This document shows positions 4,417 through 44,324 of a stretch of 64,000 nt of DNA, one piece after another (positions within the stretch are counted from its first letter, which is position 1; every line of letters starts with the position of its first letter). The position numbers and the translations under genes are program-made. Origin of the DNA: Nocardiopsis sp. JB363 (GTDB lineage: Bacteria > Actinomycetota > Actinomycetes > Streptosporangiales > Streptosporangiaceae); contig NZ_FRFF01000045.1 in the NCBI RefSeq assembly GCF_900143625.1, positions 1-64,000 on the forward strand, given 5' to 3'. Below the pieces are notes generated by a model. The model was not told the DNA's origin. It searched no databases and worked only from the letters and a program-made list of their open reading frames with translations.

Positions 4417-5634
4417 CTAGGTTCCGCTCCCCTGAGGGGCCAGAGGCTCCGGGACCGCGGTGGGATATCGGCGGACGGACAGCGCCATCACCACCAGGGC
4501 CACGAATCCGACGCAGGCCGCGGCCACGGGCACCGCCGCGCCACCGGAGGAGGCCACCACCGCACCGCCGACCATGCCCGCCACCGCGGTCCCCACGTAG
4601 AGTCCGCCGGTGTTGAGGGCGAGGGCCTCGGTGCCGGCCTCCCCGGCCAGGCCGAGCAGCCGGGCGCTCATGGGCGCGGCGAACCCCCAGGCGGCGAACC
4701 CCCACACCGCGAGGACCCCGCCCAGGGCCCACGCCGGGAGTCCTCCCCCGGTCAGCGGGGCGAGGAGCGCCAGGACGACGCTGGTGGCGACCATCCCGAC
4801 GAAGGTGACCAGGAGGACCCGGTCGGCGCCCCACCGGTCGGTGGCCCGACCGCACACCAGGGTGCCGAGCGCGCCGGCCACACCGATCGTGGCGATCAGG
4901 GGAGCCAGGACCACGCCCGAGGAACCGGTGAGGTCCACGGTGATCGGAGCGATGTAGGTGTAGGTCATGAACCCGCAGCTCGCACCCAGGACGGTCCCGG
5001 TGACGCAGAACAGGATCGCGGGACGGGACAGCGCCCTGAGCTGCTCACGCGGGCCCGCCTGCGAGGATCCGGGCAGCGAGGGGAGCAACGCGGCCGAGGC
5101 GAGCAGGACCAGGCCGGTGAAGACGGCCACGGCGACGAAGGCCGCACGCCAACCGAAGGCGGCCCCGAGCACGGTGCCGGCCGGTACACCCAGGAACAGC
5201 GACACGGTGAGGCCCGCGGCCACCATTCCGACCGCGCGACCGGTGCGTTCGGGTGCGGACAGCCCCGCGGCCATGGCGAAGGCGACCGGGGTGATGAGGG
5301 CCGCCACCAGCGCGGCGCAGACCCGCAACGCCATCAGCGTGACGTATCCGGGAGCCAGCGCGGTGACCAGGTTGACCAGTGCGAACAGGGAGAGCGCGCC
5401 GAGCAGCAGGGTGCGTCGGGGCAGCCGGGCCGTGGCCACCGCCAACGGCGGGGCCGCCACGGCATAGGTGATCGAGAAGAGGGTGACCAGCTGTCCGGCG
5501 GCGGCCATGCCCACATCGAGGTCTTGGGCGATGACGGGCAGCAGGCCGGCGATGAGCAGGTCGTCGGTACCGACGGCGAAGGCGGCCAGGGTCAGGCAGA
5601 GCAGCCGGCCCGGGCCCAGTGTGCGTGAGGACAT
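4417..5634 (-). CDS. MFS drug/solute efflux transporter (DHA1 type)
   Basis: The protein is 405 residues long with about 12 membrane helices. The N-terminal AVGTDDLLIAGLLPVIAQDL resembles AraJ/CmlR-type proton antiporters, with motif A reduced (LARLPRRTLLL-like loop). Such transporters export chloramphenicol-like drugs or sugars; the substrate is unknown. It is the first gene of an operon with merR. The ATG at 5634 directly follows a promoter whose predicted start point is 0-2 bases upstream, so the mRNA is leaderless or nearly so. Confidence 0.85.
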   Translation of the reverse strand: MSSRTLGPGRLLCLTLAAFAVGTDDLLIAGLLPVIAQDLDVGMAAAGQLVTLFSITYAVAAPPLAVATARLPRRTLLLGALSLFALVNLVTALAPGYVTLMALRVCAALVAALITPVAFAMAAGLSAPERTGRAVGMVAAGLTVSLFLGVPAGTVLGAAFGWRAAFVAVAVFTGLVLLASAALLPSLPGSSQAGPREQLRALSRPAILFCVTGTVLGASCGFMTYTYIAPITVDLTGSSGVVLAPLIATIGVAGALGTLVCGRATDRWGADRVLLVTFVGMVATSVVLALLAPLTGGGLPAWALGGVLAVWGFAAWGFAAPMSARLLGLAGEAGTEALALNTGGLYVGTAVAGMVGGAVVASSGGAAVPVAAACVGFVALVVMALSVRRYPTAVPEPLAPQGSGT

Positions 5635-5640
5635 GGCGGA

Positions 5641-5673
5641 ACGCTAGAACCCTGACACAGGTGTCAGGGTCAA
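5641..5673 (-). promoter_or_regulatory. MerR-controlled promoter with long spacer and palindromic operator
   Basis: Read on the minus strand, -35 TTGACC (5668-5673) is separated by 19 bases from TCTAGC (5643-5648), or by 21 from TAGCGT (5641-5646). The spacer holds a perfect 10-bp palindrome: ACCCTGACAC, two bases, GTGTCAGGGT (5649-5670). A long spacer filled by a dyad is the hallmark of promoters that MerR regulators activate by DNA twisting. Confidence 0.85.
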
Positions 5674-5703
5674 GTCGCGCCCGGGGAGGAGCCTCGGGTC
5701 CGG

Positions 5704-5802
5704 TCAGCCGAGAAGGGCGCCCAGGATCACGATGGCCATGATCGAACCGAGCACCACGGGCAACAGCCAGCGCTGCTTGCGGTTGTTGGTGAGCATGCTC
5801 AT
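5704..5802 (-). CDS. 32-residue single-helix membrane peptide, coupled to the upstream gene
   Basis: The peptide starts MSMLTNNRKQRW, followed by one hydrophobic helix of about 20 residues, and ends LG. The ATG at 5802 overlaps the TGA of the RNA phosphodiesterase gene as ATGA, so translation is probably coupled. A second ATG at 5796 is possible. No function is known. A positive N-terminus before one membrane helix predicts the N-terminus inside the cell. It could be a regulator or partner peptide. It is a real gene only if the peptide is conserved in relatives. Confidence 0.55.
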   Translation of the reverse strand: MSMLTNNRKQRWLLPVVLGSIMAIVILGALLG

Positions 5803-6380
5803 GACGTGCCGCACTCCGGTGCTCGTTGGGATTCGCCTTCCCAGGGTAGTCGCCAGGTCCGGACGGTCCGGTAGCGGTCCGCCCTTCCGGGTCGACTCTC
5901 CACCAGGTCGACCCGATCGGCCCGCCAGCCGACCCGGGGCGGTTCGCCCAGCGTGTGCGGAAACCCGGCCGGGGAGCGCGGTGGGCGGGCCCGCGCGAGG
6001 GTGAGGTGCGGCACGAAGGGACGTGACGCGACGGGCACGTCGTTGGTTCGCGCGGCCGTGGTCAGGTCGTGGACCAGCCCGTCCAGTGGGCCGCCCACCC
6101 CGGCCCAGAACACGGAGGCGGATCCGCTGTTGCGAGGAAAGGTGCCCCAACCGTCGAGCGTCAGGTCGGGTGCGGGACGTCCGTGGAGGCACTCCCCCAA
6201 CGCGTCGGCGAGCCGGGGGACCCGTTCGTCGACGACCTCTCCGAGGAAGAGCAGGGTGAGGTGCCATTCCTCGCTGCGGGTCCAGCGAAGCTCCGGCGAG
6301 TGCCGACGCGTACGCCGAACGGTCTCCTCCAGCGCGTCGATGACCTCCGGCGGGGGCCATAGCGCGACGAACAGTCTCAC
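5799..6380 (-). CDS. thpR: RNA 2',3'-cyclic phosphodiesterase (2H/LigT family)
   Basis: The protein is 193 residues long, the normal size for ThpR. It opens 2',3'-cyclic phosphate ends of RNA to 2'-phosphates (historically called 2'-5' RNA ligase). Both catalytic H-x-T motifs are present: HLTLLFLG near residue 40 and HLTLARARPP near residue 128. The GTG at 6380 (VRLFVALWPP) is chosen because family members begin here; GGAGG lies about 11 bases upstream. It is divergent from the TauE gene and overlaps the small membrane peptide by four bases. Confidence 0.88.
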   Translation of the reverse strand: MRLFVALWPPPEVIDALEETVRRTRRHSPELRWTRSEEWHLTLLFLGEVVDERVPRLADALGECLHGRPAPDLTLDGWGTFPRNSGSASVFWAGVGGPLDGLVHDLTTAARTNDVPVASRPFVPHLTLARARPPRSPAGFPHTLGEPPRVGWRADRVDLVESRPGRADRYRTVRTWRLPWEGESQRAPECGTS

Positions 6381-6457
6381 AGCGGATCGGCCTCCTCCGG
6401 TGCGCGGAACGATTAGGGTCACCTGGTCCCCTCCCATCCTCCCTTGGAGACGTACCC

Positions 6458-7189
6458 GTGTCCGTCCTCGTCGGCGTGTTCGTCACCCTCACCCTGGCCG
6501 CGCTGGTCCGGATCGCCGCCGGGTTCGGCTTCTCGTTGGTCTCGGTCCCCCCGCTGGCCCTGCTCCTGGACCCGGTGACCGCGGTGGTGATCGCGGCGAC
6601 GCTGGCCGTGCCGTTGAACCTGTGGGTCGCGGTGGGCGATCGGGCCCACGTGGACCGACGCGGCGCCCTGGTGTTGTTGGTGTGCTCTCTGGCCGGCGTG
6701 CCGTTCGGTCTGTGGGCGCTCAACGTCCTGTCGGAATCGACCCTGTTGTCGCTGATCGCGGTCACGGTGGTCGCCGGAACCCTGTTGGTGGGGCTACGGG
6801 TGCGCGTGCCCGGTGGTATGAGCGCGGCGGGTGGGATGAGCGCGCTCTCGGGCGCCTCGTTCGCCGCGACCGCGATCGACGGGCCGATCCTGGTCGCCGG
6901 TATGCAGGGCTCGCGCCTGGCCGACCTGGAACCACGGGAGCAGCGCGCCACGCTCGCCGTGGTGTTCTCGGCGACGAGCGTGGCGACGCTGGTGGGGTTC
7001 GGCTTCGGTGGTCAGCTGACCCCGGAGGTGGGGACCCTGGTGGCCGTGGGCGTCCCGGCCCTGTTGGTGGGCACGTTCGCCGGAGAACGGCTGTTCCGGA
7101 GGTTGAACGCCGAACTCTTCCGACGCACCATCCTGGTGCTGCTCGTGGTGAGTTCGGTGTCGATGCTCACGCGTGTGGTCACCGCCTGA
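6458..7189 (+). CDS. TauE/SafE-family sulfite/anion exporter
   Basis: This 243-residue membrane protein has about 7-8 helices and two TauE/SafE half repeats. Each begins with a small-residue-rich helix: AALVRIAAGFGFSLVSVPPL, then SGASFAATAIDGP. Relatives export sulfite, sulfoacetate or other organosulfonates. The GTG start at 6458 has TTGGAG upstream. The 3' end overlaps the converging MFS gene by 11 bases. No sulfur-oxidation genes are adjacent, so the substrate is uncertain. Confidence 0.85.
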   Translation: MSVLVGVFVTLTLAALVRIAAGFGFSLVSVPPLALLLDPVTAVVIAATLAVPLNLWVAVGDRAHVDRRGALVLLVCSLAGVPFGLWALNVLSESTLLSLIAVTVVAGTLLVGLRVRVPGGMSAAGGMSALSGASFAATAIDGPILVAGMQGSRLADLEPREQRATLAVVFSATSVATLVGFGFGGQLTPEVGTLVAVGVPALLVGTFAGERLFRRLNAELFRRTILVLLVVSSVSMLTRVVTA

Positions 7190-37660: not shown

Positions 37661-39418
<1,758 letters not shown>

Positions 39419-42141: not shown

Positions 42142-42199
42142 CGCCACCCTCGTCCCGGAAGAAACCTCATCCCAGGTTACGAGGCCCCTGGAAGACGAA

Positions 42200-42232
42200 G
42201 AGGGGGCGGACGCACCGAGCGCCCGCCCCCTC
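42200..42232 (-). terminator. Terminator after the sulfur-carrier gene
   Basis: GAGGGGGCGG (42200-42209) and CCGCCCCCTC (42223-42232) are perfect 10-bp arms, 13 bases past the sulfur-carrier stop codon. Confidence 0.85.
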
Positions 42233-42245
42233 CCGATGCGTACGG

Positions 42246-42524
42246 TCAGCAGCCGCCGGCGACGGCGGGGATGATCGACACCTGCTGACCGGCCTTGACC
42301 TCGGTCTGCAGACCCTTCTCGAAACGCACGTCCTCGTCACCGACGTAGACGTTCACGAAACGGCGCACCTTGCCGTTGTCATCGAGGATGCGGGCCCGGA
42401 TACCCGGGTGGTTGGCCTCCAGGTCGTCGAGGATCTCGGCGAGGGTGGCGCCCTCGGCGGTGACCTCGGAGGCGTCGTCGGTGTAGGTGCGCAGGATGGT
42501 GGGGACGCGGACGCTGGCGCTCAT
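42246..42524 (-). CDS. MoaD/ThiS-like sulfur carrier protein ending in Gly-Gly-Cys
   Basis: This 92-residue ubiquitin-fold protein is close to mycobacterial CysO: PTILRTYT at the start, RRFVNVYVGDEDVRF in the middle and VSIIPAVAGGC at the end. Sulfur carriers act through a C-terminal Gly-Gly that is adenylated and converted to a thiocarboxylate. Here an extra Cys caps the Gly-Gly, so a JAMM (Mec+-like) peptidase would have to remove it first. It follows the threonine-synthase-like gene by 68 bases on the same strand. It therefore probably shares that gene's SAM-riboswitch-controlled transcript. ATG at 42524, CCAGGAG site. Confidence 0.88.
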   Translation of the reverse strand: MSASVRVPTILRTYTDDASEVTAEGATLAEILDDLEANHPGIRARILDDNGKVRRFVNVYVGDEDVRFEKGLQTEVKAGQQVSIIPAVAGGC

Positions 42525-42592
42525 GCTGGAACTCCTGGTGGGTGCTGTGGCGGATCGTGGCGAGCGGCGGCCGGAAGGCCTGGGGCGGACGC

Positions 42593-43852
42593 TCAGACCA
42601 GGCCCTCGGCCTTGAAGGCGTCGAGGGAGGGCTTGATGGTGGCCGTGACGCCGGAGTCGACGGCGTTGAGGGTCTTGAGCCCGTCACCGGTGTTGACGAT
42701 CACGGTCTCGGCCTCGGTGTCGAGCCTGCCCTCGCGGACCAGCTTGCGCAGGACACCGGTGGTCACGCCGCCCGCGGTCTCCGCGAAGACGCCCTCGGTG
42801 CGGGCCAGTAGCTTGATGGCGTCGACGATCTCGTCGTCCCCGACGTGCTCGACCGAGCCGCCGGTGCGCTGAGCGATGTCCAGGACGTACGGACCGTCGG
42901 CCGGGTTACCGATGGCCAGGGACTTGGCGATGGTGTCCGGCTTGACCGGCTGGATGACGTCGTGGCCCTCTTCCCACGCCTTGGCGACCGGGGAGCAGCC
43001 CGTGGCCTGCGCGCCGAACACCTTGTAGGGGCGGTCCTCGACCAGGCCGACCTCGATGAGCTCTTGGAAGCCCTTGTCGATCTTGGTGAGCTGCGAACCG
43101 GAGGCGATCGGGATGACGATCTGCTCGGGCAGACGCCAGCCGAGCTGCTCGGCGATCTCGTAGGCCAGCGTCTTGGAACCCTCGGCGTAGTAGGGCCGAA
43201 GGTTGACGTTGGTGAAGCCCCAGCTCTCGCCGGCCTCGTCCCCGATGAGCTCGGAGCAGAAGCGGTTGACGTCGTCGTAGTTGCCGTCGATGGCGATGAC
43301 CTTGCCGCCGTACACGGCCGCCATGACGACCTTGCCCTCCTCCAGCCCGGCCGGGATGAACACGCACGACTCGAAGCCGGCACGCGCGGCCGCGGCACCG
43401 ACCGCACCGGCGAGGTTACCGGTGGAGGAGCAGGACAGGGTGGTGAACCCGAAGGTGCGGGCGGCCTCGACGGCGATCGCGACCACGCGGTCCTTGAAGG
43501 AGTGCGTGGGGTTGGCGGAGTCGTCCTTGACGTGCAGGGACTTCAGGCCGAGTTCGGCGGCGAGGCGGTCCGCCCTGACCAGCGGGGTCAGGCCGGGGTT
43601 CATGTTGGGCAGCTCGGCCACGTTGTCGGGGACCGGCAGGAGGGAGCGGTAGCGCCAGATGTTCTTGGGGCCGCTCTCGATCTCCTCGCGGGTGACGTTC
43701 CCGAAGTCGTAGGCGATCTCCAGGGGGCCGAAACAGAACTGGCAGGCGAAGCTCGGCGATAGTTCGTAACGCTCGCCGCACTCCCGACAGGAGAGGGCGG
43801 TTCCGGGACCGAAGGCGCGGACGGCGGTGGGTTCAGCGGCGGCAATCGCCAT
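42593..43852 (-). CDS. thrC: Threonine-synthase-like PLP enzyme under a SAM riboswitch
   Basis: This 419-residue fold-type II PLP enzyme looks like a threonine synthase. A small Cys-rich N-terminal segment (SCRECGERYE, ACQFCFGPLE) could bind zinc. The PLP lysine lies in NPTHSFKDR near residue 112, the phosphate loop in SCSSTGNLAGAVG, and VIPIASGSQLTK is in the second domain. The family acts on O-phosphohomoserine. A SAM-I riboswitch before it and a sulfur-carrier gene after it point to homocysteine formation (methionine route) over threonine formation. This is an inference from context; the sequence alone would be called ThrC. ATG at 43852. Confidence 0.85.
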   Translation of the reverse strand: MAIAAAEPTAVRAFGPGTALSCRECGERYELSPSFACQFCFGPLEIAYDFGNVTREEIESGPKNIWRYRSLLPVPDNVAELPNMNPGLTPLVRADRLAAELGLKSLHVKDDSANPTHSFKDRVVAIAVEAARTFGFTTLSCSSTGNLAGAVGAAAARAGFESCVFIPAGLEEGKVVMAAVYGGKVIAIDGNYDDVNRFCSELIGDEAGESWGFTNVNLRPYYAEGSKTLAYEIAEQLGWRLPEQIVIPIASGSQLTKIDKGFQELIEVGLVEDRPYKVFGAQATGCSPVAKAWEEGHDVIQPVKPDTIAKSLAIGNPADGPYVLDIAQRTGGSVEHVGDDEIVDAIKLLARTEGVFAETAGGVTTGVLRKLVREGRLDTEAETVIVNTGDGLKTLNAVDSGVTATIKPSLDAFKAEGLV

Positions 43853-44324
43853 GGCGAGGCGTCTCCCCTCATCTTTCCTGGTGGCCACCTTGACCCCAGG
43901 CCGGAGTTGGCACCTGCCTCGACGGGTACGCGATGGTGCGTCCACATGTCGAGATGGTTGCCGGGGCTTCGCAGGGCCGGTCCCTCCACCCCTCTGGATG
44001 AGCAATATGAAGTTGTCGCGTGTCCGCTTGGGGAACGCACCGTCACTGTAACGGACGTGGTGACCGGTTTTCCATGCCTGGTGATCCGGATTACACAAGG
44101 CGTCTCGTAATTTGAGACCCGATGAGACGCCACCGAACGGCGCGACGCCGTGCGCGCTCCGCGTTCCGGGAGCGTGATGCTCCTCCCCCTTGACCAGGGG
44201 TGGGTTTGGGGCAGGGGTGCTCCGGCGAGACCTAGGATGCGCCTCCGTCTCGCCGGGGGCGCACCGACGACTTCCCTGCATTCCCACCGCGGCACCCGTT
44301 CGCGCGCTCGAAAGGACCCCACAC
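43853..44324. other. 472-base divergent region: riboswitch leader, promoters, dyad
   Basis: Besides the riboswitch it holds GGCGTCTC/GAGACGCC (44099-44131), an 8-bp inverted repeat. TGTAAT, a good -10 candidate (44090-44095, minus strand), would give the riboswitch gene a leader of about 230 bases. The right end contains the upstream region and ribosome site of otsA. No gene is seen. Confidence 0.55.
43868..44002 (-). promoter_or_regulatory. SAM-I (S-box) riboswitch
   Basis: Read on the minus strand from 44002, P1 begins CTCATC and closes with GATGAG at 43873-43868. Between them lie the S-box core elements: AGAGGGGTGGAGGGAC, then CGGCCCTGCGAAGCCC and CGGCAACC (kink-turn and P2/P3), then GGTGCCAACTCC (P4/J) and GGAAAGATGAG. 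All are in the right order and spacing over 135 bases. The GGGGAG ribosome site of the next gene follows P1 at once, so SAM probably represses translation. Confidence 0.95.

Follow-up and report, generated by a model that had tools for sequence, protein, structure and literature searches.

A SAM-I riboswitch upstream of a metM/metO-like gene pair in Nocardiopsis sp. JB363, a probable homocysteine route

Within the window, by which we mean the whole 64,000-nucleotide stretch of contig NZ_FRFF01000045.1 analysed here, a SAM-I riboswitch precedes a gene for a threonine synthase (ThrC)-like protein, itself followed by a gene for a small sulfur carrier (Table 1). Sequence comparison makes it very probable that this pair belongs to the MetM/MetO homocysteine route, as a copy of Nocardiopsis type. 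The system itself is already published (Hasebe et al. 2024, Appl Environ Microbiol 90:e01247-24, cited in PMC12172450), and evidence from its distribution among genomes is added here. The direct basis of this explanation is the gene order, the riboswitch, orthology, conserved residues and genome distribution.

Table 1. Features of the metM/metO-like locus in the window
Feature	Position	Strand	Description
SAM-I (S-box) riboswitch aptamer	43866-44004	minus	RF00162 match; same site in whole-genome search
Shine-Dalgarno-like GAGGGGAG	43863-43870	minus	sequence and Rfam alignment
metM-like gene, predicted homocysteine synthase	42593-43852	minus	419 aa, ATG at 43852
metO-like sulfur carrier gene	42246-42524	minus	92 aa, ThiS family, ends PAVAGGC
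Strong hairpin 3′ of metO	about 42196-42235	minus	fold; possible terminator

The riboswitch, the carrier and the loci of relatives

A first-pass annotation of this DNA had placed a complete S-box riboswitch at 43868-44002, directly before a thrC-like gene that was followed by a CysO-like carrier gene, and this arrangement was confirmed. The Rfam model RF00162 differs from the proposed limits by 2 bases at each end, and its match scores 77.3 bits (gathering score 44.4, E 2e-16) over all of model positions 1-108. It is the sole match at or above the gathering score within the 64 kb, and no second SAM-I riboswitch was found in the 7.07 Mb genome, where 150 of 449 candidates were scored. The aptamer ends 13 bases before the metM-like ATG, the protein exceeds the cut-off of the 'thrC' model TIGR00260 (282 bits vs 167), and the carrier start lies 68 bases past the metM-like stop.

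For comparison, the best 80 of at least 585 relatives were kept, all of them named, so that these 80 loci are near relatives. The named MetM proteins closest to the window protein come from Nocardiopsis, and named copies from Streptomyces, arranged in the same way, share 72-76% identity with it. Among these best 80, the riboswitch lies upstream in every locus and the carrier downstream in 78, the other two loci being at contig ends; the metM stop and metO start touch or overlap in 13 of the 78. More distant loci of the phylum carry the riboswitch in 14 of the 19 scanned (the five without it are L132, L134, L136, L138 and L141) and a carrier adjoining metM in 28 of 29. One phylum locus (L145 of genome G204, 5204-6632) has the riboswitch and metM, but the 12 kb taken gave no match to a carrier; its next gene resembles an aldehyde dehydrogenase, a name given in this analysis. 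Near the pair in the window there is also a groEL-like gene (37661-39397), as there is immediately after the pair in Acidimicrobium ferrooxidans, and this neighbourhood may be old.

The first bases of GAGGGGAG belong to the 3′ strand of helix P1 of the aptamer. When a loose motif of four bases is used, a Shine-Dalgarno-like site is present in all 80 named loci and overlaps the 3′ end of the aptamer in 75 of them. We considered a terminator of transcription within the leader and rejected it, as just 10-19 bases separate the aptamer from the start codon throughout the 80 loci; with so little room, translational control is the likely mode of action of the predicted riboswitch. A CCTC lies within 14 bases 3′ of the aptamer in 79 of the 80 loci. 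In the window (between 43853 and 43865) as in relatives, it could pair with the GAGG of the Shine-Dalgarno-like site, and is a possible piece of the expression platform. Folded as a single sequence, the leader had a z of -1.1, a stability no better than that of many shuffles, which means that the case for the riboswitch structure comes from the Rfam model and not from energy. No promoter-like site was found at the locus.

The solved chains nearest to the carrier are 4n6e_B (E 9e-28) and 3dwg_C (E 7e-25), the latter of which we take to be mycobacterial CysO. The window carrier runs one residue, a Cys, past Gly-Gly. Carrier ends among the 80 named loci are GG in 46, GGC in 27 and other short tails in 5, the carrier not being found in 2. 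The idea of a conserved carrier end was consequently dropped: the final Cys is not general, and is thus itself unlikely to be catalytic. Downstream, a 71-base stretch containing the hairpin folds at -39.6 kcal/mol (z -2.8), and a search of the locus for a T-run terminator after metO found none. The terminator that had been proposed after the carrier is therefore only partly supported, the hairpin being there and the T-run not.

A second carrier of the same genome, CysO-like (L019, contig C159), is likewise tailed past Gly-Gly (AVAGGSR). Only one Prok-JAB protease was found in the genome. It reaches no NCBIfam cut-off, and the name Mec-like used here derives from its location next to cysO- and cysM-like genes (so named in this analysis). 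As both carriers have tails, both seem to need this single JAMM-type protease. The chemical end of a Gly-Gly-Cys protein equals that of the CysO-cysteine adduct, which suggests Mec trimming: the tail would have to come off before thiocarboxylation, most simply by the action of the Mec-like protein. Cleavage of the CysO-cysteine adduct by Mec is described in passages of PMC3227635.

An enzyme that resembles threonine synthase

The metM-like protein has an N-terminal four-cysteine domain (C22, C25, C37, C40) and a PLP domain, matched by Pfam PALP, with lysine 120 in the motif SFKDR. Its structure was predicted with a pLDDT of 89.7, and the best structural matches are threonine synthases. TIGR00260 cannot part MetM from ThrC, as 20 of 20 MetM rows of set A2 match it, and the six NCBIfam models that match MetM rows at E 1e-40 are every one named threonine synthase. 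The cysteate synthase model matched the window protein weakly (58 bits for a cut-off of 325). Identity to the ThrC of its own genome is 34%.

R219, Y222, S226, A250-S251-G252, K257, T359, G361-G362 and T394 are invariant in 98 of 98 MetM rows, and the same positions hold N, R, Q, G-N-A, A, P or L, S-A/C and D, respectively, in 5 of 5 ThrC rows. The window protein thus has Y222, A250-S251-G252 and T394 where ThrC proteins share the R of PYR/PHR, the GNA and the D at 394. The replacement of the PYR/PHR arginine by tyrosine, and of the GNAGN asparagine by serine, holds for all 98 MetM rows; in Thermus ThrC, these two residues presumably bind the substrate phosphate. A literature search on ThrC active-site numbering returned nothing. 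In the tree, MetM is a separate clade with 100/100 support that includes named Streptomyces rows (S. albulus itself is not among the rows). The program warned that long branches meet; each of the three groups of the tree lies on one side of a branch, and no order among them is claimed. The residue pattern tells MetM from threonine synthase by sequence alone.

A third ThrC-like subfamily, with a residue pattern of its own, was seen at loci L149-L155 and L164-L166. Its N-terminal domain has four Cys (or three Cys and one His) in 9 of 10 rows as cut. A protein of this subfamily may be the real threonine synthase of G275 and G335, two genomes with MetM and no ThrC match.

Homocysteine routes in this genome and across the phylum

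The genome of the strain (99.96% complete) was examined for other routes. A separate hom-thrC-thrB cluster was found, as the first-pass annotation had predicted, with a ThrB at 208 bits (cut-off 168). The genome also encodes a MoeZ (731 bits, cut-off 647). A metX gene (550 bits, cut-off 475) adjoins metY (797 bits, cut-off 703), cystathionine beta-synthase- and gamma-lyase-like genes lie together on another contig, and a mec-cysO-cysM-like cluster with its own carrier is on contig C159 (names given in this analysis). The metO-like carrier is not located with cysM and mec, as a CysO would be. That annotation had also held that its reading would fall if the genome lacked another thrC and had a complete conventional homocysteine pathway: the other thrC is there, but so is a complete O-acetylhomoserine route. 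Because of this metX-metY route, MetM/MetO is not needed by elimination. Judged from its genes, it is best taken as a parallel homocysteine route here; no other such route was found under a SAM-I riboswitch.

Five queries (MetM, MetX, MetA, ThrC and the SAM-I riboswitch) were then run against 396 Actinomycetota genomes, giving matches in 139, 148, 50, 280 and 199 genomes, respectively. The MetM figure derives from 147 genomes at E 1e-60 or better, of which the 8 weaker ones were dropped. Counting all 147 was rejected since the weak ones examined (7 of the 8, all except G315) form another group, with the third residue pattern and a separate clade; near these 7 hits, no carrier match was found in the stretch taken. 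A ThrC match at E 1e-60 was present in 131 of the 139 MetM genomes and absent from 8. By an eye count, six of the 131 matches have E values above 1e-100; these could be hits to MetM itself, and setting them aside would leave 125.

MetM and homoserine acylation tend not to occur together. MetX was matched in 37 of the 139 MetM genomes, and MetA in 5. Among the 301 good genomes (completeness of 90% or more, contamination of 5% or less; 111 with MetM and 190 without), MetX or MetA was found in 37 of 111 with MetM vs 129 of 190 others (Fisher p 6e-9; shared ancestry is ignored here and in the other genome counts), leaving 74 and 61 genomes, respectively, with a match to neither. The imbalance persists when all 147 genomes are kept (MetX in 39/147 with MetM vs 109/249 without), and in the window's own class MetX occurs in 6 of 14 genomes with MetM vs 23 of 24 without.

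The position of the riboswitch was studied for 150 listed places (more exist), taking 500 bases as the upstream window. For this count, 139 MetM places were used, weaker and second hits being left out, and 149 MetX places, one fragment being left out. Of the 150 listed places, 57 had metM as the downstream gene and 30 had metX. The listed riboswitches of MetM genomes (n=68) were at metM in 57 cases and at metX in none, those of genomes without MetM (n=78) were at metX in 29 cases, and 4 of the 150 fell in weak-MetM genomes, outside both groups. Genomes without MetM thus often have the switch on the acyltransferase gene, and where MetM exists the switch is on metM. It is at metM also in genomes having both metM and metX, such as G000, G107 and G161. 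Phylum genomes with the riboswitch upstream of metX include G011 and G026.

One phylum genome bears on a published question, the homocysteine source of Acidimicrobium ferrooxidans. Strain DSM 10331 is listed among those without a known homocysteine route in passages of Price et al. 2018 (PMC5764234), which also reference a protein-thiocarboxylate methionine route in Wolinella; our literature search on homocysteine or methionine biosynthesis in A. ferrooxidans found nothing beyond this paper. The MetM of genome G080 is 100% identical to a DSM 10331 protein recorded as threonine synthase. Its locus (L144) holds a SAM riboswitch (60.0 bits), metM, a carrier ending PAVAGG, and then a groEL-like gene (498-2150). 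The genome has a ThrC match at E 3e-111, no MetX match at E 1e-70 and no MetA match at E 1e-40. From these genes, MetM/MetO would fill the homocysteine gap of A. ferrooxidans, and the pair offers a direct test of that question. The wider proposal, that in much of Actinomycetota the SAM-controlled synthesis of homocysteine runs mainly through MetM/MetO, that it fills the Acidimicrobium gap, and that the Gly-Gly-Cys carrier is a Mec-requiring precursor resembling the CysO-cysteine adduct, seems to us evenly balanced when taken as a whole.

Proposed reaction, other readings and known systems

From the above we infer the substrate, sulfur donor, product, trimming and SAM response of the system. 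Once the extra C-terminal Cys is removed, MoeZ would adenylate the carrier's Gly-Gly and lead to the thiocarboxylate, in analogy with CysO. MetM, a PLP enzyme of fold type II and a relative of threonine synthase, would take O-phosphohomoserine made by ThrB and eliminate the phosphate. It would then put sulfur from the carrier on the gamma carbon, rather than water on the beta carbon, and release homocysteine and the carrier. When SAM is plentiful, helix P1 would form, the ribosome-binding site would be partly covered and translation of the pair would fall.

The reading of homocysteine rather than threonine, put forward in the first-pass annotation, is supported, with activity assigned through orthology. 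The Streptomyces precedent that it named proved real in passages of PMC12172450, where MetM is a homocysteine synthase of Streptomyces; in our literature search, the names MetM and MetO were found in this sense in that source only. Its statement that SAM-I riboswitches govern methionine, cysteine and SAM genes and not threonine genes is slightly too strong, as tandem SAM riboswitches precede hom in some Bacillota, according to passages of PMC12452182. Counting against homocysteine are the NCBIfam names, the genome's own metX-metY, and a relative from a cyanobacterium, which lacks the riboswitch and shares 51.6% identity with S. albulus MetM. According to passages of PMC12172450, this protein yielded threonine when given O-phosphohomoserine in vitro, and failed to raise methionine in threonine-treated cells. 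With the TIGR00260 score, the structural matches and the 8 MetM genomes devoid of a ThrC match, this relative speaks for a true second threonine synthase having the carrier as a chance neighbour. We hold this very improbable, given the riboswitch in all 80 nearest named loci, the conserved carrier, the separate ThrC match in 131 of 139 MetM genomes, and the loss of the ThrC arginine and asparagine from 98 of 98 rows.

Still less probable is that homocysteine is made mainly from free sulfide, the carrier being dispensable or serving another enzyme. Na2S was employed in the mSystems study to imitate MetM activity (passages of PMC12172450), so sulfide may serve in vitro, and L145 has the riboswitch and metM with no carrier match; against this, the carrier gene is beside metM in 78 of the 80 named loci and in 28 of 29 others from the phylum, and the two genes overlap or touch in 13 of 78. 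We give scarcely any weight to another sulfur replacement, at the gamma or beta position, under SAM control, yielding for instance cysteine or a special metabolite. Thiocarboxylate carriers do supply several pathways, and there is the weak similarity to cysteate synthase, but the genome has its separate mec-cysO-cysM-like cluster, the presence of MetM runs against homoserine acylation, and the riboswitch is often at metX in genomes without MetM. If the homocysteine route is the correct reading, a methionine enzyme carries the label threonine synthase in the named relatives of many actinobacteria, and pathway predictions can then be mistaken in showing gaps in methionine synthesis and additional threonine synthases.

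Among known systems, ThrC (TIGR00260; 1uim, 2d1f, 6cgq, 2zsj) shares with the window protein its fold and the PLP lysine motif SFKDR; the window protein differs by its four-cysteine N-terminal domain, its changed active-site residues and its separate clade. The Wolinella methionine route is reportedly alike in binding the sulfur for homocysteine to a carrier, and is said to differ in using an enzyme of another family, acting on O-acetylhomoserine. Mycobacterial CysO-CysM-Mec, in passages of PMC3227635, has a thiocarboxylate carrier, a PLP partner and MoeZ activation in common with the proposed route, but makes cysteine from O-phosphoserine, and the similar-looking cluster is separate in the Nocardiopsis genome. 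Closest is MetM/MetO of Streptomyces albulus, which according to passages of PMC12172450 comprises, like the window, a ThrC-like enzyme, a carrier-like metO gene and a SAM riboswitch upstream of metM; in a comparison made without the S. albulus sequence, the difference is that the window's genome also has metX-metY.
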